64,000 bases of DNA. Source: Candidatus Gastranaerophilales bacterium (GTDB lineage: Bacteria; Cyanobacteriota; Vampirovibrionia; Gastranaerophilales; Gastranaerophilaceae). A program made the position numbers and the translations under genes. Positions 18,491 to 35,662 of this stretch are shown here, one piece after another; the first letter of the stretch is position 1, and each line of letters starts with the position of its first letter. The notes beneath the pieces are model-generated. The model had not been told where the DNA came from, did no database searches, and saw only the letters and a list, made by a program, of their open reading frames with translations. The DNA is taken from NCBI GenBank assembly GCA_944326675.1, contig CALVET010000079.1:1-64000 (forward strand), written 5' to 3'.

Positions 18491-18518
18491 TTAAAAAATC
18501 ATTCTTAATGGGAATGAT
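18491..18518 (-). terminator. Terminator overlapping the stop of the 18505-19290 gene
   Basis: Stem ATCATTC (18498-18504) / GAATGAT (18512-18518) with the stop codon in the loop; six T residues follow in the minus direction. Confidence 0.75.
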
Positions 18519-19290
18519 CTTTGTTATAGTAGGTTTTTTCTCCTGATTCAGCACCAATAAAACAATATATAAACGGCAGAAGTCTTCCGAGGGGTAGTTT
18601 TGAAAAAATTCCGTCTTTAAAAGAGGCTAAAACCGGTATTATATCGTCAATATGAACAAGTAAGTCCTTGGGTTTTATTGTTTTTTTGGTTTGGTGTTCT
18701 TTATCAACAAAATTTGAATTAATTGTATTAGATACACTTAAGCTGATACCTAGACCTGCGACTAATCCAACCAGTATGGTCATGTTTTTTAGAAATTTAT
18801 TATTGTTAATTGTTTTAAATACACTTAATGATTTTTGGTTTGACAGCTTCTCAATTCCGTATTCCGTTAATTTTGCCAGTGCTGCAGGTATTACAACGTT
18901 ATTTACGGTGAATATTCCTTGTTTTATTTTTTCTTTTTCGTTTCTTTTATCTTTGTCTGTTGATTTGGCGGCTATAATACTTCCAATTACGGCACCTGCA
19001 GATTGAGATACCATTGCAAAGTAGCCTTTTAAGCCTTCATAATCGATGTCTGTAAAATTATATATATTTTTAAAAGTCTTTTTGAGGTCATTTTTTACAA
19101 ATATATCTTTAGGAACTGTTCCTTTTTTGTTTATCGCTAAAGCAATTCCAAATCCTGCCATTGTTCCTAAAATTGAACCTATAAGAGCTCTCTTTTGCGT
19201 TTTTTTATCGCGCACAATTACTCTATTTCTTTCGTTTATGGCATAGTTAAAATTTTTATAAAGTTCGTTTTGTGAATTATTTATGTTCAT
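18505..19290 (-). CDS. Multi-pass membrane protein, paralogue B of a tandem pair
   Basis: A 261-residue protein with about four hydrophobic segments (near 36-52, 92-108, 165-188 and a weaker one near 235-250), the first two glycine- and alanine-rich. It shares its whole length with the upstream neighbour (19340-20116). The common landmarks are DIFVKND.KKT, the DYEGL.GY block, NNV.IPAALAK, and the C-terminal block DLLVHIDDIIPVLAS followed by a Pro-containing segment and GAESGEKTYY. Charged residues are kept inside the C-terminal block, which suggests a functional site. The DNA ends in a histidine-rich tail (DHSH). No family is recognised. No strong RBS; it may be translated from the paralogue's transcript. 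Confidence 0.75.
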   Translation of the reverse strand: MNINNSQNELYKNFNYAINERNRVIVRDKKTQKRALIGSILGTMAGFGIALAINKKGTVPKDIFVKNDLKKTFKNIYNFTDIDYEGLKGYFAMVSQSAGAVIGSIIAAKSTDKDKRNEKEKIKQGIFTVNNVVIPAALAKLTEYGIEKLSNQKSLSVFKTINNNKFLKNMTILVGLVAGLGISLSVSNTINSNFVDKEHQTKKTIKPKDLLVHIDDIIPVLASFKDGIFSKLPLGRLLPFIYCFIGAESGEKTYYNKDHSH

Positions 19291-19339: not shown

Positions 19340-20116
19340 TTATTCGTATGTATAATAATTTTTTTCTCCTATTTCAGAGCCCAAAAGAAAATATATTAAA
19401 GGCATACATCTATCAAGGGGGAGCCCTTTAAATATACTGTCTTTAGAAGATGCCAATATCGGCACAATATCGTCAACATGGACTAAAAAGTCTGTCGGAT
19501 TTATTGTTTTTTTGCGTTTGTCATCAGGTTCGATTATTTTAGTATTTATATAATTAGAAATATTAAGACTCCCCAAAAGTCCTACCATTAAGCCTGATAC
19601 GACTGCAATATTTTTTAAGAGTTTGTTTTTGCTTATATTTTTCAATAGCTCTGATTTGTTGGTTATTGAGTTTTTTGATAACATGTATTCAACTGCTTTT
19701 GCGCATGCTGTTGGAATTGCAACATTATTCATTACAAAAACGGCTTCTTTTACTTTTTCAATTCTGCTTTCCTTGTGTTTATCTTGCCATGAACCTGCAA
19801 TTAGGCTTCCAAAGCTTGCGCCTGCCGCTTGTAAAATCATATATATGTAGCCCATGAATCCTTCATAGTCAAGTTTTGTAAATTTAAGAAGGTTCTTGGC
19901 GGTTTTTTTAATGTCATTTTTAATAAAAATGTCTTTAACGGGTTCTTTTTTTCGTGCAAGTGCAATGCTTAAGCCTAGGCCTATTGTTGTGCCTACTGCG
20001 CTTCCAATCAAACTTGCTTTTTTAGTTTTTTGTTCTTTTACGATTGTAAGATATGCTTGTTTTTCAGGAAATGCGAATGACTTATATAATTTTTTTTGAG
20101 ATTCCGATATTTTCAT
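19340..20116 (-). CDS. Multi-pass membrane protein, paralogue A of a tandem pair
   Basis: Homologue of the gene downstream. From Met at 20116 it is 258 residues; the reading frame is open to a TTG at 20134, but alignment with the paralogue (MNINNSQNELYKNF against MKISESQKKLYKSF) favours the ATG at 20116. Neither candidate has a good RBS. Glycine-rich spans near 36-54 and 88-105, another near 165-185, then the shared block DFLVHVDDIVPILASSKDS and GSEIGEKNYY. The middle Lys/Glu-rich loop differs most between the two copies. Nothing in the sequence names a function; transport, pore or channel roles are possible. The gap of 49 bases suggests one operon. Confidence 0.75.
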   Translation of the reverse strand: MKISESQKKLYKSFAFPEKQAYLTIVKEQKTKKASLIGSAVGTTIGLGLSIALARKKEPVKDIFIKNDIKKTAKNLLKFTKLDYEGFMGYIYMILQAAGASFGSLIAGSWQDKHKESRIEKVKEAVFVMNNVAIPTACAKAVEYMLSKNSITNKSELLKNISKNKLLKNIAVVSGLMVGLLGSLNISNYINTKIIEPDDKRKKTINPTDFLVHVDDIVPILASSKDSIFKGLPLDRCMPLIYFLLGSEIGEKNYYTYE

Positions 20117-20262
20117 CATAGGCATATAATACAAAACTGCTCAAAATTAAACATTGCTTTTAAAAATTTTATTTTACATTCTGTTATAAATAATTGTAGT
20201 TATTACATATTTAATGTAGTCTTTTAATGAGTATTAGATTATTTTTTTAAGGTAATTTTTTT

Positions 20263-28340: not shown

Positions 28341-28354
28341 AGTTGAGGAATAAA

Positions 28355-29497
28355 ATGATTATTTTAAATAAACCTTATGTATCTGATTTTTTAGTTGAAA
28401 CAATAAAAAAGAACGGTTTTAGTGTATTAGATAACGAAATAGCAAGAAATTATTTTGATATTAAAGATTTAACATCTTCAGATGAGGCTGTTGAGCTTTC
28501 TTCGGGTGAATTAATATATTCAAATTCGGAAAATTCAATTGATTGGGTTTTAGAAAATCTTCAAAATTCTGATATTTCAAGAATGATTAAAATAAGTAAA
28601 GATAAAGTCTTGTTTAGAGAAGCATTGAAGAAAATTTACCCTGATTATTATTTTAAAAAGGTTAAGCTTTCAAAATTAAAAGAAATAAAGCAGCAAGAGC
28701 TGAGATTTCCTTTTGTTTTAAAGCCGAGCGTGGGTTTTTTGAGCTTTGGGGTTTATCCTGTCAAAAATGAAACAGAATGGAAAAATGTTATTGAAAAATT
28801 AAACGATGATATCAAAAAACTTGAGGGTTTTTTCCCGAAAAGCGTTGTAAATATGTCTGATTTTATCATTGAAGAAATGATAGAAGGCGAAGAATATGCG
28901 CTTGATGCATATTACGATAAAAACGGCGAAGCTGTTATATTAAACATTTTTCATCATCCGTTTTTTGATGATCAAGATGTATCAGATAGAGCATATTATA
29001 CTTCTAAGGGAATTATTCAAAAATATCATGATAAATTAAAACTTTTATTGGATAAAATAGGAAAAGAAATAGGATATAAAAACTTCCCTTTTCATATTGA
29101 ATTGAGAATCGATAAAGATAAAATTATTCCGATTGAAATTAATCCAATGCGTTTTTGCGGATGGTGTATAACAGATATTGCCCAAAACGCTTGGAATATA
29201 AATGTTTATGAGTATTTCTTAAAACAATTAAAACCAAACTGGCATGAAATATTGAAAAATTCTACTGACGATTATTTTTACTTTACAATGGGCGATATAC
29301 CCTCTTCAATTGATAAGAGCAAAATTAAATCAATTAATTACGACAAATATTTAAAAAACATTTCAAACCCTTTGGTTATAAGAAAAATTGATTATAAAAA
29401 TAACCCCGTTTTTGCGATTGTTTTTGCAAGAACAAAATCAATTGATGAAATTAAAAATATTCTAAAATTAGACATGAAGGAATTTATTGATTTTTAA
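28355..29497 (+). CDS. Stand-alone ATP-grasp family protein
   Basis: A 380-residue protein; the ATG at 28355 follows GAGGAATAAA, so the upstream in-frame TTG is not used. The middle and C-terminal parts show the ATP-grasp landmarks: FPFVLKPSVGFLSFGV (lysine and glycine loop), IIEEMIEGEEYALDAYYD, FHIELRID and IPIEINPMRFCGW (Mg-binding Glu and Asn). ATP-grasp enzymes join a carboxylate to an amine or thiol through an acyl-phosphate. The substrate is unknown. Carbamoyl-phosphate-synthase-like or amino-acid ligase roles are possible. The 3' end overlaps the convergent gene by 14 bases. There are no peptide or biosynthetic neighbours to suggest a product. Confidence 0.8.
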   Translation: MIILNKPYVSDFLVETIKKNGFSVLDNEIARNYFDIKDLTSSDEAVELSSGELIYSNSENSIDWVLENLQNSDISRMIKISKDKVLFREALKKIYPDYYFKKVKLSKLKEIKQQELRFPFVLKPSVGFLSFGVYPVKNETEWKNVIEKLNDDIKKLEGFFPKSVVNMSDFIIEEMIEGEEYALDAYYDKNGEAVILNIFHHPFFDDQDVSDRAYYTSKGIIQKYHDKLKLLLDKIGKEIGYKNFPFHIELRIDKDKIIPIEINPMRFCGWCITDIAQNAWNINVYEYFLKQLKPNWHEILKNSTDDYFYFTMGDIPSSIDKSKIKSINYDKYLKNISNPLVIRKIDYKNNPVFAIVFARTKSIDEIKNILKLDMKEFIDF

Positions 29498-30773
29498 AAA
29501 CGCTGATACCTTTAATTCCTTGTTGTTTTGAATATCTTATAATTTGGTCTATATCTTGAATATCGCTTTCAGGTCTTAGATTGACGGTTTTTGAGATTTG
29601 TGCATCTATGTATTTTTGTGCTGTTGCTAAGGTGTCAATCTCAAGATAATAATTCATTGGTTGATTTTTATTTGGTTCAATAGAAGGCGTTGTTTTTAAT
29701 AGTCTTGAAATTGTTCCTGTAGGAGAAATTGCTGTTTTTAAGCCGTTTGAATTTACTTCTTTTTTGATTATTTTAAGGCAATTTTCCAGAATTTCATTTG
29801 CTTTTTTTTCGCCATAATTATATCCCATATAACTAAGAAGCTTTTGATAACCCAAAATGCCTATAAATCCGTCGGGAGCAATATTTTTAAATCCTTTAGA
29901 TAATAAATTTGCCGCATATTTTAAAAGCTTATAGTCTATTGATTTTGTTTTCTGATTATAAAATTTTGAAAGGTTGATTTGAGCAAGGTTTAAGCTTTGA
30001 TTTTCTTTTAATTGCGCCGCAGCACAACAATCGCAAAGATAATTTTCGTCGTCTGAAAAAATTATTGCAGGCTCGCCTGATTCAAGCATAGAAGATAAAA
30101 GATTATGATAAATTATATTTGCGCTTATTTTTGAACCGTCTGACATTGTTATATCTTCATTTTTGTCGACTTTTGATAAAAAATCGTCATCTATTATAAC
30201 CGATAAATCAAAGCACCAATTTTCATAGTCTTTATTGTCTTTTAAATGTATAAAGTCAAGAATTTTAGGGTGATTAACGGGTAATAATCCAATGGCTGCA
30301 GGCGGTCTTGAAAGAGCGGGTTCTCTATATTTTAAATATTTGTTTATTTCTTTAATTTCGTATATGGGGTTTTTAAATTCGGAAAAATTTATTCCTATTC
30401 CAACTCCGTTTTTAATATATTCTTCCAATAAGGCGCAGTGTGATATTGTTGATTTTTTGGGGTCTAATTTTATTGCTATTGCGCTTTTTGGGTCATCAAG
30501 GTTAGAATATGCGTTGCTCGAGAGGCTGACATAGCCATGTTTTAAAAGGGTTGAGAAATTTTTAACATCATCAGAATTTATAAAAAGCTTATTCGATACA
30601 TCATCAAAAAAAGAATTAATATCTTGGTTTTGGTTGATGATTTTTCTTTTAATTAGAGGTTTTTTATCTATAAACGGATTTTCAAAACAAAATTCATCTG
30701 TTCTTTTTGGAAAATAAACAGAATTATAATTTTTATAGGGTTGTATTGGTTGAAATGGCAATATTTGGAGCAT
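29484..30773 (-). CDS. Degenerate class II ribonucleotide reductase-like protein
   Basis: A 429-residue protein homologous to the catalytic barrel of adenosylcobalamin-dependent (class II, NrdJ) ribonucleotide reductase but lacking the N-terminal ATP-cone region and C-terminal redox tail. Recognisable blocks: NHPKILDFIHLKD (about 168-180), LNLAQINLSKF, ISPTGTISRLL (phosphate-binding loop), EIDTLATAQKYIDAQISKTVNL and GIKGISVFKN. In the active-site block the expected N-P-C-G-E is D-C-C-A-A: the thiyl-radical Cys is kept (Cys250), but the Asn and Glu are gone, and the second catalytic Cys is Leu (position 261). The partner Cys in the first block is also missing. Reduction of nucleotides is therefore unlikely. 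It follows scpB by 2 bases, coupled to the SMC operon. Confidence 0.78.
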   Translation of the reverse strand: MLQILPFQPIQPYKNYNSVYFPKRTDEFCFENPFIDKKPLIKRKIINQNQDINSFFDDVSNKLFINSDDVKNFSTLLKHGYVSLSSNAYSNLDDPKSAIAIKLDPKKSTISHCALLEEYIKNGVGIGINFSEFKNPIYEIKEINKYLKYREPALSRPPAAIGLLPVNHPKILDFIHLKDNKDYENWCFDLSVIIDDDFLSKVDKNEDITMSDGSKISANIIYHNLLSSMLESGEPAIIFSDDENYLCDCCAAAQLKENQSLNLAQINLSKFYNQKTKSIDYKLLKYAANLLSKGFKNIAPDGFIGILGYQKLLSYMGYNYGEKKANEILENCLKIIKKEVNSNGLKTAISPTGTISRLLKTTPSIEPNKNQPMNYYLEIDTLATAQKYIDAQISKTVNLRPESDIQDIDQIIRYSKQQGIKGISVFKNQ

Positions 30774-30775
30774 TT

Positions 30776-31288
30776 TTACAGATTTTTTAGGTCCTGAGTT
30801 GCATCAAGTTTTTTAACAAGGGCTTTAATATCCCCTTTTAATTTAAAATACTCCTGAAATTTTTTTGTTGTTCTTATGTTGAAACTTCTTCCGTTTTTAT
30901 CTTTTGTTCTTGAAATTAAACCTTGTTCCAATAATTCCGCAATATGTTCATAAGCGCTAGGGCGAATTTCTTTAAGATAAGATTGCCTTATCGGTTCTTT
31001 TAGGGCAATTACCGTTAAAGTTTTTAATACTGCCGGTTTTAACTCAACAGGGCATAATTTTTCAACAATATCCATATGTTCTGCTTTAACTTGAATTATA
31101 TATCCGTCTTCATCGTCGATTTCTAATGCACCGTTTCTTGAAGAATAATCAAACATTAAATCTAAGAGCGCGCTTTCAACCTCTTCGACATTTGTTTCAA
31201 GAATTTGTGCAATTTCATCAGGGTGCATCGCTCTTGAGGTTATGAATAAAACAGCTTCTATTTTTGATTTTAAAACTTCAGGTTCCAT
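30776..31288 (-). CDS. scpB: Segregation and condensation protein ScpB
   Basis: Winged-helix kleisin-interacting subunit of the bacterial condensin complex SMC-ScpA-ScpB. The 170 residues contain two winged-helix halves: KIEAVLFITSRAMHPDEIA (about 5-23) and the second with VLKTLTVIALKEPIRQSYLKEIR (quoted here in part) and LLEQGLISRTKDKNG. Normal length. It starts 4 bases after the scpA stop and is followed after 2 bases by the ribonucleotide-reductase-like gene. Confidence 0.95.
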   Translation of the reverse strand: MEPEVLKSKIEAVLFITSRAMHPDEIAQILETNVEEVESALLDLMFDYSSRNGALEIDDEDGYIIQVKAEHMDIVEKLCPVELKPAVLKTLTVIALKEPIRQSYLKEIRPSAYEHIAELLEQGLISRTKDKNGRSFNIRTTKKFQEYFKLKGDIKALVKKLDATQDLKNL

Positions 31289-31292
31289 TTAT

Positions 31293-32165
31293 TTATTCTT
31301 CTTCCTTAAGGTTTTTTTCTTCTTTTTTGACAAATAATTTTCCGTAAAATTCGTCTTGATAGAGTTCACATTCTTCTTCACGAGCTAAAAATAATAATGC
31401 AATAAAAGCGGAGCTTCTGTCAAAACCTAACAAACAAAGCTCTCTTAGTTCAATATTTTCTTCTCTTTGAAAAATTTGAACAAGATTTTGACGCATTTTT
31501 TCAACAACTTGTTCAACATATTCTTCATGGGCAAGCTCTTTAATATCAGAGGCTTTTAAGTTTGCATAATTTCGAACGCGTCTTTCTTTTCTATCTAGTG
31601 CTGATTTAATTGCATATTTTTTTTCTAATTCTTCATAAAATTGAATATGGCGAATTAAATCTTTTAAGGTTACGGTTCTTTTTCTGTTTAATCTTACCGA
31701 TGTTCTTCTTTGTAATACTTCATCAAAAGAAACAATGTTGTTTGTTGGGATTTGCATTTGTTCGAAATCTTGGTCATCAGAATAATCATCTTCAAAATAA
31801 TCTTCAGGCTCCATTTCAAAATCGTTGATGGTGATACCTTGTAAAATATCTGATTTGATTTTTAAAAGCGTTGATGAAAATAAAATCGCCTTTCCGACAG
31901 AACGAAGATTATCTTGTTTGAGTTCTGAAATTCTTTTCATATATTTATCATACAAATCAACAATATCAATGTTCCAAGGGTCAATTTTGCCCATTTTAAC
32001 TAAATCAAGGATGATTTCAATTGCGTCTGTTTGGACATTTTTTTTAATGCCTGTATTTGAGATGAATTCAATATTGTTTCCGAAATCAACAGTGCCATCA
32101 AGCACTTTAATTTCGTCATACATGTGTTTGTTGTTATTATAAAAATCACTAACTGCTTCAGACAT
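31293..32165 (-). CDS. scpA: Segregation and condensation protein ScpA (kleisin)
   Basis: Kleisin that bridges the two SMC heads and binds ScpB, enabling chromosome compaction and segregation. The 290 residues have the N-terminal SMC-neck-binding region (about 25-95, ILDLVKMGKIDPWNIDIVDL), an acidic middle linker (about 110-150), and the C-terminal winged helix (about 200-280) with FQREENIELRELCLLGF-type sequence. The start overlaps the smc stop by one base (TAATG), so the two are translationally coupled. Confidence 0.95.
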   Translation of the reverse strand: MSEAVSDFYNNNKHMYDEIKVLDGTVDFGNNIEFISNTGIKKNVQTDAIEIILDLVKMGKIDPWNIDIVDLYDKYMKRISELKQDNLRSVGKAILFSSTLLKIKSDILQGITINDFEMEPEDYFEDDYSDDQDFEQMQIPTNNIVSFDEVLQRRTSVRLNRKRTVTLKDLIRHIQFYEELEKKYAIKSALDRKERRVRNYANLKASDIKELAHEEYVEQVVEKMRQNLVQIFQREENIELRELCLLGFDRSSAFIALLFLAREEECELYQDEFYGKLFVKKEEKNLKEEE

Positions 32166-35100
32166 TATTCATCCTTTATTTTAATTCCTGAAATTTTAGT
32201 AACCCCTTTGTCTTTTTGGGTTACACCAATCATTCTGTCGGCATTATCTAACATTGGTTTTCTTAGTGAAACAACAATAAATTGTGCTGTTTTTGATTGA
32301 TTGGTGATGATTTGGGCTAATTTTTCTACATTTGGTCCGTCAAGGTGCATGTCAACTTCATCGAATGCATAAAACGGAGCAGGCAGGTATTTTTGGATAG
32401 CAAAAACAAAAGCTAAAGCTGTTAGAGATTTTTCACCGCCTGACATGCCTGCAAGCTTTTGATTTCTTTTATCTCTAATGTTTGCAACAAAAGTTAAACC
32501 GCCTGAAAAAGGATCTTCTTCGTTTTCTAATGATAAAGAGCCGGAGCCTTGAGATATTTGTTCAAAGACTTCTTTGAAGTTATTATTAATTGCATGGTAC
32601 GCTTCAAGGAAGGTTTCTTTTTTCAATCCTTGATAGCCGTTCATTCTTGTTTTAATTTCATTTTTTTCGTTGTTTAGAGTTTCAACCTTTTCTTTATAAG
32701 AATTTTGGCGCTCTAAAACAGAATCATATTCTGTTAGCGCTCTCATATTAACCGGTTCTAATTCTTCCATTTTCTTTTGTAGCTTGGAAATTTTAGAATT
32801 GATTTCATCAAGAGAAATTTCTGTTTGCTCAAGTTCTTTTGGGTTAATTCCCATTTCGTTGAATTCTTTTATTATATTTTCTAAAATTGGTTCTAATTCT
32901 CGCCTTCTTGCTTTATAGCTTTCTTCTTGTTCTAATAATCTTTCAATGTCGTCTTGAATTTTGTTTTTAGAGGTTTTAGAGTTTAATAATTCTTCTTGTA
33001 ATTCATCTCTTTTTTGCTGCAATTCAACAAGGTTTTTACCCAGTTCAAGAATTTCTTTTTCTAATTTTTCAAGAACTTCTTTTAAAGATAGAATTTCTTT
33101 TTCAAATTGTTCTTTTTCCGTTTTTAGGTTTTCATTGTCGCTTGTCAGTTTTTTGATATCATTTTCACGGGTTGAAATTTGGCTTTGTTGGAATTTGATT
33201 TGATTTTTGTCTTTTTCGATATCATTTTCTTTTGTCATTATTGCTTTTTCAAGATTTTTAATATCCTCTTCAACACCTGTTGTTTTTTCTTTTAATTTTT
33301 TTAATTCGCCTTCATCAATTAGTTTTTCAACAGCTTCAAGTTCTTTTTGAAGAGTTTGAGATTGTTCGTTTAATTTGATGTGTTTATTTTCAATTAAATC
33401 AAGCTCTCGAGATAATTTTGCATTTTTTTCTTTTAATTCTTTTAAAAGCTTTTCGCCGTCTGAAATAATATTTGCGCTTGATTCGTTGTTTGAAACAAGG
33501 TTTTTAAGCTCAATTTTAGCTCCGTTTAAGGTGTTTAGAGCACTTGAATGTTTTTGTCTTATATCATCTAATCTTCGCTCTAAATCTTTTTCTTTTTGAG
33601 CCAAATCTCTTGCTTGCAGTTCAAGGTCTTTAAGAGCTTTTTTATATTTTTCAAGTTCTCTTTCTTGGCTTTTATCAAAGAAAGAAGCATTTTTCTTTTT
33701 GGCACCGCCTGTTATAAGACCGCTTTTTTCTGTTATGTCGCCTTCAAGGGTTACTACTCTATATTTTCCGGCTAATTTTTTAGCGCAGTTTTCGTCTTCT
33801 ACAACAATTGTTTCGCCAAGTGCAAAATAAAATGCATCAAGATATTTATCATCAAAATCGATTAAATTGATTGCAAAATCGATTACACCTTTTTCTTTGG
33901 GTAAAGAAAGACGAGCGGGCGTTTTTTTGATTATGCTTAAAGGAATAAAAGAGGCTCTATCTCTGCCCAATGAGCGCAATACTTGAATTGCTTTATAGGC
34001 AACATCTTGGTTATCTACAACGATTGAATAAGCACGAGCTCCCATAGCAACGTTAATTGCATCAATATATTCACCTTCAACATCGGCCAATTGTGCCAGT
34101 GGTTGATGAACACCTTCAATATGAGCATTTAGAACAGATTGAATACCTGAACCTTGTCCTGCTGTTTTATAGGCATTTTTGTTTGCGTCTAAAATTGCTA
34201 TTCTTTTTTGTGCTTGTTGAATTTTATAGAATGTATCTTCTTTTTGGGTTTTTGTTTTATCCAGTTCTTCAAATGTTTTTGTTTGAATGATTTTATAATC
34301 TTGAGTTTCTGTTGTCAGTGTTTCAATTTGAAGAGTTAATTTGTCTTTTTCGTCTTCAAAAATCTTAGATGAATTTAAAAGTTTTTCAATTTGAGCTTTT
34401 GTTTGGTTGATTTTTTCCGTGTTATTTTTATATTCGCTTTCAAGAGGCAGCTGTTCTTTGATTAAATCTGTTTCTTTGTCTTTTAGTTCATCAAGTTCTT
34501 TCTTAAGTCTGTTTCTGTTTTGAATGTGTTCATCAGCAGATTTATTTAAACCTGTCATTTCCGTGATAATTTTATTAAGTTCTTCTTTTTTTGCTTTTAG
34601 AGAAGAATTCAATTCATTTAATTCAAGATTTTTTTGTTCAATAGCTTTTGTATATTCTTGTATTTTTTCTTTTTGAACTTCTATACCGTTTTTATAGCCT
34701 TCAATTGCTTTTAAATTATCAAGAGTGGTTTTTTCACATTGAGCTATGGCAGATTTTTTTCTTTCAACTTCACTTTTTTTTTCTTCTAAAAGTTTTTTTT
34801 CTTTTATCTGTTTTTCTTCTCCTTGAGCCTTAACTTTAGAATTAATTTCATCATACTTTATTTTTAAATCTTCAATTTTTGTAGCTGCTTCTTTTAGTTT
34901 TTCATTTAGTTCTTTTTTTGTTTTTTTTGCCATTAAAATATTTTGGTGTACAAGCTCTAATGAGCGAACTGTGTCAAAATATTTTGCGCTATGGATTTTT
35001 GTTTCAAGCTCCGTTTTTTCATCTTTAAACTTTTTATATTTAAGTGCAACTTCTCTTTCTTGTTTTAGTTGTTCAATTCTGTTATCGATTTCGTTAATTA

Positions 35101-35662
35101 AAATTGTATCGTTTGCAATTTTATCTTCAACATTTTGTATTTGTTCACTTGCAAGGGCAATTTTTCTGTCAAAATCGGCAGTGCCTGCAATTTCATCTAT
35201 GATTTTTCTTCGCTCAATTGCAGAACACCTTGTAATTTCTGTTACATCCCCTTGCATCATAACATTATAACTGTTTGGAGAAATGTTATATTTTTCTAAT
35301 TCCATGTGTATTTGGGTTAAACTGCAGGGCTTATCATTGTAATAGTAATTGGATTGAACGCCGTTTTTGCCCTTTTTAACATATCTTCTGATTGAAAATT
35401 CTTCTCCGTTATCGTTTGCAAAAACAACTTTAACGCTGGCTTCGTTGCGTTTGTTATGGTTAGAGATTAAATCGGCAACACCTTGCTCAGAGCGCAGTGA
35501 ACGGGCTGTTCTTAAGCTTAGAGCAAAAAGAATACTATCGATGATATTGCTTTTTCCGGAGCCATTGGGACCTGAAACGGCAGTAAAACCTTGCATTAAA
35601 GGAATATTAACCTTAGATGCAAAAGATTTAAAGTTATCAATTTCAAGTTCTTTTATATACAT
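32165..35662 (-). CDS. smc: Chromosome segregation ATPase SMC
   Basis: Bacterial condensin ATPase that extrudes DNA loops and separates chromosomes. The 1165 residues give the complete layout: Walker A GPNGSGKS (31-38), first coiled coil (about 165-495), hinge (about 505-625, GQGSGIQSVLNAHIEG then MGARAYSIVV), second coiled coil (about 660-1000) and C-terminal head with the signature LAGMSGGEKSLTALAF and Walker B APFYAFDEVDMHLD. First gene of smc-scpA-scpB plus the ribonucleotide-reductase-like gene. A weak AT-rich promoter region of 70 bases separates it from lepB. Confidence 0.98.
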   Translation of the reverse strand: MYIKELEIDNFKSFASKVNIPLMQGFTAVSGPNGSGKSNIIDSILFALSLRTARSLRSEQGVADLISNHNKRNEASVKVVFANDNGEEFSIRRYVKKGKNGVQSNYYYNDKPCSLTQIHMELEKYNISPNSYNVMMQGDVTEITRCSAIERRKIIDEIAGTADFDRKIALASEQIQNVEDKIANDTILINEIDNRIEQLKQEREVALKYKKFKDEKTELETKIHSAKYFDTVRSLELVHQNILMAKKTKKELNEKLKEAATKIEDLKIKYDEINSKVKAQGEEKQIKEKKLLEEKKSEVERKKSAIAQCEKTTLDNLKAIEGYKNGIEVQKEKIQEYTKAIEQKNLELNELNSSLKAKKEELNKIITEMTGLNKSADEHIQNRNRLKKELDELKDKETDLIKEQLPLESEYKNNTEKINQTKAQIEKLLNSSKIFEDEKDKLTLQIETLTTETQDYKIIQTKTFEELDKTKTQKEDTFYKIQQAQKRIAILDANKNAYKTAGQGSGIQSVLNAHIEGVHQPLAQLADVEGEYIDAINVAMGARAYSIVVDNQDVAYKAIQVLRSLGRDRASFIPLSIIKKTPARLSLPKEKGVIDFAINLIDFDDKYLDAFYFALGETIVVEDENCAKKLAGKYRVVTLEGDITEKSGLITGGAKKKNASFFDKSQERELEKYKKALKDLELQARDLAQKEKDLERRLDDIRQKHSSALNTLNGAKIELKNLVSNNESSANIISDGEKLLKELKEKNAKLSRELDLIENKHIKLNEQSQTLQKELEAVEKLIDEGELKKLKEKTTGVEEDIKNLEKAIMTKENDIEKDKNQIKFQQSQISTRENDIKKLTSDNENLKTEKEQFEKEILSLKEVLEKLEKEILELGKNLVELQQKRDELQEELLNSKTSKNKIQDDIERLLEQEESYKARRRELEPILENIIKEFNEMGINPKELEQTEISLDEINSKISKLQKKMEELEPVNMRALTEYDSVLERQNSYKEKVETLNNEKNEIKTRMNGYQGLKKETFLEAYHAINNNFKEVFEQISQGSGSLSLENEEDPFSGGLTFVANIRDKRNQKLAGMSGGEKSLTALAFVFAIQKYLPAPFYAFDEVDMHLDGPNVEKLAQIITNQSKTAQFIVVSLRKPMLDNADRMIGVTQKDKGVTKISGIKIKDE

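Follow-up and report, generated by a model that had tools for sequence, protein, structure and literature searches.

A short gene directly behind scpB in one genus of the Gastranaerophilales encodes a barrel protein descended from class II ribonucleotide reductase (RNR; the class II enzyme is NrdJ). The protein has the RNR barrel fold, has lost several parts of the reductase and is under purifying selection. Our preferred explanation, held with moderate confidence, is that it is a divergent class II RNR paralogue, retired from reduction and kept for a regulatory or sequestering role with a nucleotide-like pocket. The gene is located in a window of 64,000 nucleotides from a Candidatus Gastranaerophilales bacterium (contig CALVET010000079.1), to which all positions refer (Table 1).

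Table 1. Features of the barrel gene and its neighbours in the window
Feature	Position	Strand	Remarks
NrdJ-derived short barrel protein (pseudo-ribonucleotide reductase)	29484..30773	-	ORF, ATG start, 429 aa
N-terminal extension, residues 1-36	30666..30773	-	Poorly conserved; residues 1-29 have pLDDT < 50
Site of missing loop 1 (specificity-effector loop), residues 130-135	30369..30386	-	14-residue deletion, strand B/helix B
W186-C187-F188	30210..30218	-	Invariant in 27/27; in canonical NrdJ, 187 is Asn and 186 has no counterpart
Finger loop D248-C249-C250-A251-A252	30018..30032	-	Canonical N-P-C-G-E; C250 is the radical cysteine position, invariant
Phosphate loop S350-P-T-G-T-I-S-R357	29703..29726	-	P351 and S356 invariant
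I393-S394-K395-T396 motif, late strand	29586..29597	-	S394 and T396 invariant both here and in canonical NrdJ
scpB	30776..31288	-	PF04079, E 7e-32; upstream neighbour of the barrel gene
scpA	31293..32165	-	PF02616, E 5e-15
smc	32165..35662	-	PF02463, PF06470
ATP-grasp gene, convergent	28343..29497	+	PF13535, E 8e-62; its 3'-terminal 14 bases lie within the barrel gene

Fold and ancestry

The barrel protein matches PF02867, the Pfam profile of the RNR large-subunit barrel, with an E-value of 5.7e-24. Against the NCBIfam profile NrdJ_Z (TIGR02504) it scores 106.3 bits, below the family cut-off of 399.95, while a canonical NrdJ from the same bacterial family reaches 742.6. The mean identity between the protein and the NrdJs of its own order is 24%. 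T. maritima NrdJ is the closest solved relative by sequence.

An AlphaFold2 model built from an alignment with 23 orthologues has a pLDDT of 89 and a pTM of 0.85, and contains the ten-stranded RNR barrel. Its matches in Foldseek and VIA-align are NrdJ and class Id RNR alpha chains. VIA-align superimposes the model on T. maritima NrdJ with bound AdoCbl (3o0o) with a Z-score of 34.8 and a deviation of 2.2 Å over 389 residues, and on 6dqx with a Z-score of 36.2 and 2.5 Å over 375 residues; 1xje also aligns, over about 390 residues. Profile search and structure prediction agree with an earlier reading of the sequence alone, which had recognised an NrdJ barrel and a PTGTIS phosphate loop. At the level of single residues, 38 positions that do not vary among 15 canonical NrdJs of the order are each retained by 25 or more of the 27 orthologues; they include N144, R156, E234-P235, N267, P351, S356, S394 and T396.

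Distribution and a partly degraded relative

The gene is present in 26 of the 28 genomes of the genus and lacking in two, G016 and G116; these genomes are MAGs, with a completeness of 87.7% for G000. The pattern retained across the 26 genomes that carry the gene is far beyond chance. In the other genera of the order that were sampled, the short gene was not found, apart from a 562-aa relative in the genome G281.

This G281 paralogue (L103:2375-4063, contig C59) was found in one species of another genus of the same family. Like the short proteins, it carries C187 and a loop 1 deletion. Unlike them, it keeps the catalytic Glu and a beta-A cysteine, shares its genome with a canonical NrdJ, and lies on a different contig from scpB. 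It is thus related to the short protein but only partly degraded. In a quick maximum-likelihood tree, whose branches are long, that of G281 included, the short proteins (support 98) and the G281 paralogue form one clade, with the sampled canonical NrdJs apart (support 100); the shared deletions independently support the placement of G281. Scans for a phage or plasmid source (tblastn, IMG/VR) returned only ordinary distant RNRs, with 18-27% identity in matches covering most of the query and slightly higher values in partial ones.

Catalytic residues

What the radical and redox cysteines do in the RNR family is well established. The NxCxE motif and the beta-A/beta-F redox cysteine pair have been described (PMC9669993). 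In the barrel protein, D248-C249-C250-A251-A252 aligns with N320-P-C322-G-E324 of T. maritima NrdJ. C250, which corresponds to the radical cysteine C322, is present in 27/27 orthologues. The remainder of the motif is lost: the Asn is replaced by D248 in all 27 sequences, and the Glu by Ala (24) or Thr (3). No orthologue has a Cys at residues 95-101, where the beta-A redox cysteine is expected, and position 261, that of the beta-F cysteine, is occupied by Leu (24) or Phe (3) and never by Cys.

Both the replacement of N-P-C-G-E by D-C-C-A-A and the absence of two redox cysteines had been noticed in the sequence-only reading, and both stand. Its description of the protein as catalytically dead is accurate for the Glu, the Asn and the redox cysteines, but the radical cysteine C250 is kept and C187 is a new invariant residue. 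An intact catalytic Glu or redox Cys at a shifted position was sought in the 27 aligned sequences and none was found. In two orthologues (L013 and L016) the finger loop reads D-P-C-G-A and resembles the ancestral N-P-C-G-E more closely than the common D-C-C-A-A does.

Because C250 and the new C187 are invariant, there is room for chemistry of another kind. The main rival to our preferred explanation is an active enzyme with a new, non-RNR reaction, in which C250, C187 and D248, usually together with C247, would serve as a nucleophile, in thiol redox or as a metal site. We consider this unlikely. In its favour, C187, D248 and C250 are found in 27/27 orthologues, C247 is Cys in 22/27 and C249 in 20/27, and conservation is strongest in strands D and E, in a gene with a dN/dS of about 0.2. 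C187 is also common to the G281 paralogue, which keeps the Glu as well. Against a passive pocket, the invariant C187, D248 and C250 and the frequent C247 could mark a catalytic or metal site. However, C247 and C249 vary, and the genus has no radical source, as described below.

Deleted regions

Loop 1 forms the specificity-effector site of RNRs (PMC9531940). Relative to canonical NrdJ, it is removed by a deletion of 14 residues in the short proteins and in the G281 paralogue alike. Further deletions of 17 and 56 residues are located in the second half of the barrel. Another 61 residues are missing after the phosphate loop, and the protein has no C-terminal zinc/Cys tail. Judged by its position, the 61-residue deletion probably removes the cofactor beta-hairpin segment; the RNR beta-hairpin is thought to bind the radical cofactor (PMC9531940).

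The earlier reading had listed the ATP-cone and the C-terminal redox tail as absent. Both are, but only the tail counts as a loss: L109, a canonical NrdJ of 660 aa examined from this family, contains PF00317 and PF02867 only and has no ATP-cone either, so the absence of the cone here is no sign of degeneration. Loop 1 and the ATP-cone are the two known dNTP-sensing sites of RNRs. Since neither is present, dNTP sensing by the known route is ruled out, and the idea that the protein is a dNTP-level sensor, raised in the same reading, is not supported.

Deoxynucleotide supply and radical source in the genus

No full NrdJ was detected in the genomes of the genus that were searched, and the window's genome contains no second complete NrdJ. 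The genus has lost canonical NrdJ. NrdD is present in 27 of its 28 genomes. In the genome of the window, inspection by eye shows a complete NrdD that has an MGCR finger loop, a glycyl-radical region and a C-terminal zinc motif, and NrdG adjoins it; the search for a second complete nrdJ or nrdD, which the sequence-only reading had proposed, thus yielded nrdD and nrdG elsewhere in the genome and no nrdJ. NrdD is the only recognisable working reductase, and we take this class III enzyme to carry out reduction in the genus.

Corrinoid adenosyltransferase (PF01923/PF02572) was found in none of the 13 genomes of the genus tested, comprising 11 with the short gene as well as G016 and G116. PF02572 is present in 15/15 canonical-NrdJ genomes of other genera, and PF01923 is absent throughout. 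With canonical NrdJ and both tested adenosyltransferase families lost, the genus has apparently given up adenosylcobalamin synthesis, although it may import ready-made AdoCbl. The class I beta subunit (PF00268) gave no match above the cut-off in any of the 28 genomes; two weak matches (about 17 bits each; one contains stops) were taken as chance. Without an adenosyltransferase and a class I beta subunit, no known radical source is encoded for the barrel protein.

Ribonucleotide reduction by the barrel protein is, as far as its sequence can tell, very unlikely. The earlier view of a barrel without reductase chemistry is thereby borne out, and the losses prove wider, extending to loop 1 and the hairpin segment, in a genus that shows no adenosyltransferase and no class I beta subunit. 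An unusual reductase could in principle work with salvaged adenosylcobalamin, with formate or another external reductant standing in for the Cys pair and the Glu. The retained finger-loop Cys and phosphate loop are compatible with such an enzyme, and in most class III RNRs the Glu is missing and formate is the reductant (PMC4390871). However, most class III enzymes keep the single beta-A cysteine (PMC9669993), which is gone here, the cofactor-hairpin segment is deleted, no adenosyltransferase is encoded, and a complete formate-type (MGCR) NrdD with NrdG is already present. We regard this possibility as highly improbable. The protein passes the PF02867 cut-off and should not be counted as a ribonucleotide reductase in annotation.

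Selection and conservation

Among close relatives, the dN/dS of the barrel gene is 0.15-0.26. The values are 0.005-0.056 in scpA/scpB, and the convergent ATP-grasp gene mostly has 0.10-0.16. The gene is under purifying selection, and by dN/dS the protein evolves 5-8 times faster than ScpA/ScpB. Fast evolution, large deletions and the loss of the gene in two species might be taken as the marks of a decaying pseudogene on its way out. This is scarcely credible: the ORF is intact in the 27 orthologous sequences read, the first alignment contains 43 invariant columns and the model is well folded, and the dN/dS values contradict it directly.

Conservation is highest, at 0.86-0.95, in the phosphate loop and in strands B, D, E and I, and is low in the N-terminal extension (0.38) and dimer helix A (0.52). 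This profile is suggestive of the pocket, rather than the dimer surface, as the conserved part, although any folded protein conserves the cores of its strands. The conserved N-terminal M-x-I...F-x-G leader was considered as a sorting signal and gave no enrichment over internal positions.

Comparison with known systems and proposed role

Several features connect the barrel protein to the dimeric class II NrdJ of the T. maritima type (TIGR02504/NF006417): the ten-stranded barrel, the finger-loop Cys, the phosphate loop and the SKT motif. Unlike NrdJ, it lacks the redox Cys pair, the Glu and Asn of NxCxE, loop 1, the hairpin segment and the zinc/Cys tail, and it has 429 residues versus about 660. 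A minimal barrel with few insertions is also found in the class O RNR alpha of Synechococcus phage S-CBP4 (PMC9531940). Class O, however, still has loop 1, where TTP is bound, as well as the beta-hairpin and NxCxE; of all these, only the Cys remains in the barrel protein.

Few known enzymes are as constrained as ribonucleotide reductases. To our knowledge, RNRs that are retired yet selected are documented mainly in beta-herpesviruses. The R1 homologues of these viruses, HCMV UL45 and MCMV M45, have lost most catalytic residues and have a non-reducing role (PMC5469499). By the same combination of lost catalytic residues and retained purifying selection, the barrel protein would qualify as a pseudoenzyme. 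The viral proteins are class I R1 homologues that act on host cell-death and NF-kB signalling, whereas the barrel protein belongs to bacteria, derives from class II, has shed most insertions and still contains the radical Cys. No precedent for an inactive bacterial NrdJ was found in the open-access literature.

As reductase parts have been lost and selection nevertheless seems to preserve the central pocket, the barrel protein probably has a new job in the genus. We propose that a divergent paralogue of class II RNR left ribonucleotide reduction and was kept for another task, with deoxynucleotides supplied by class III NrdD/NrdG. The former substrate pocket would still bind a phosphorylated, nucleotide-like ligand, given that the phosphate loop and the finger-loop cysteine have been retained, together with R156, E234-P235 and S394/T396. 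Binding of this ligand may serve a regulatory or sequestering function without radical chemistry. More tentatively, a duplicated B12-dependent RNR may have become a small enzyme or receptor, having dropped its cofactor, reductant and allosteric parts. It would have retained the phosphate loop and the finger-loop cysteine and acquired a centre of C187, D248 and C250, used for different chemistry or for sensing a ligand.

Together, a genus-wide bacterial case, a lost adenosyltransferase, a lost NrdJ and a partly degraded cousin in another genus of the family provide a stepwise record of a fold leaving radical chemistry. They make it possible to test what an RNR barrel may be used for without the radical.

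Genomic neighbourhood and the condensin genes

The barrel gene starts 2 bases after scpB, as the sequence-only reading had stated; the scpB stop codon occupies 30776-30778. It follows smc, scpA and scpB in a tight run, in which the gaps further upstream are 4 (scpB/scpA) and -1 (scpA/smc) bases. This arrangement is part of a longer series of 17 closely spaced co-directional genes, of which the barrel gene is the last. The series includes a signal peptidase, identified by Pfam, and, from reading of the ORFs, probably also lipid A and fatty-acid genes. Promoter and terminator scans gave counts near the shuffled expectation.

The same reading took the protein for a new type of SMC partner. In every gene-bearing genome of the genus examined, the barrel gene is co-directional with scpB at a spacing of -1 to +11 bases, so that the linkage it had pointed to holds at all in-genus loci examined. 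It does not extend further: in the 13 other genera examined, different genes follow scpB. Within the genus, smc-scpAB is intact in G016 and G116, which lack the barrel gene. The ScpAB tree suggests that these are two separate losses, with differing breakpoints. In most of the genus the ATP-grasp gene adjoins the barrel gene; G016 lacks the latter, and there the ATP-grasp gene abuts scpB.

A partner or regulator of SMC-ScpAB could, for example, tie chromosome segregation to nucleotide supply. The tight co-directional linkage agrees with such a role, as does a physiological tie between RNR activity and condensin in B. subtilis, where smc mutants grow better with hydroxyurea (PMC3919155). This physiological tie was the only one that turned up in the open-access literature, where no protein link between RNR and condensin was found. 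The proposal is nevertheless very unlikely. The linkage is confined to one genus, and the gene has been lost in two genomes with condensin intact. The G281 paralogue is encoded away from scpB, the dN/dS of the barrel gene is several times that of scpA/scpB, and most members of the 17-gene run have no evident tie to condensin. The condensin link is thus weak, gene neighbourhood being all that connects the barrel protein to the segregation genes.

Given the 17-gene run, the other genes behind scpB elsewhere and the losses with intact condensin, descent within one genus is the simplest explanation of the linkage. We propose that the gene was inserted or moved behind scpB in the ancestor of the genus, which would account for its present position. 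Co-transcription with condensin would then be at most positional, and the barrel protein would be no condensin subunit.

Two further observations concern neighbouring genes. In many other genera of the family (L086, L089, L091-L096 and L098-L100), the gene directly behind scpB encodes a TPR protein with a hydrophobic N-terminus, and the three scpB-following TPR proteins tested also match matrixin (Peptidase_M10). Elsewhere in the window, two neighbouring ORFs of 261 aa on the reverse strand (18505-19290 and 19340-20125) have similar N-termini and are tandem paralogues.
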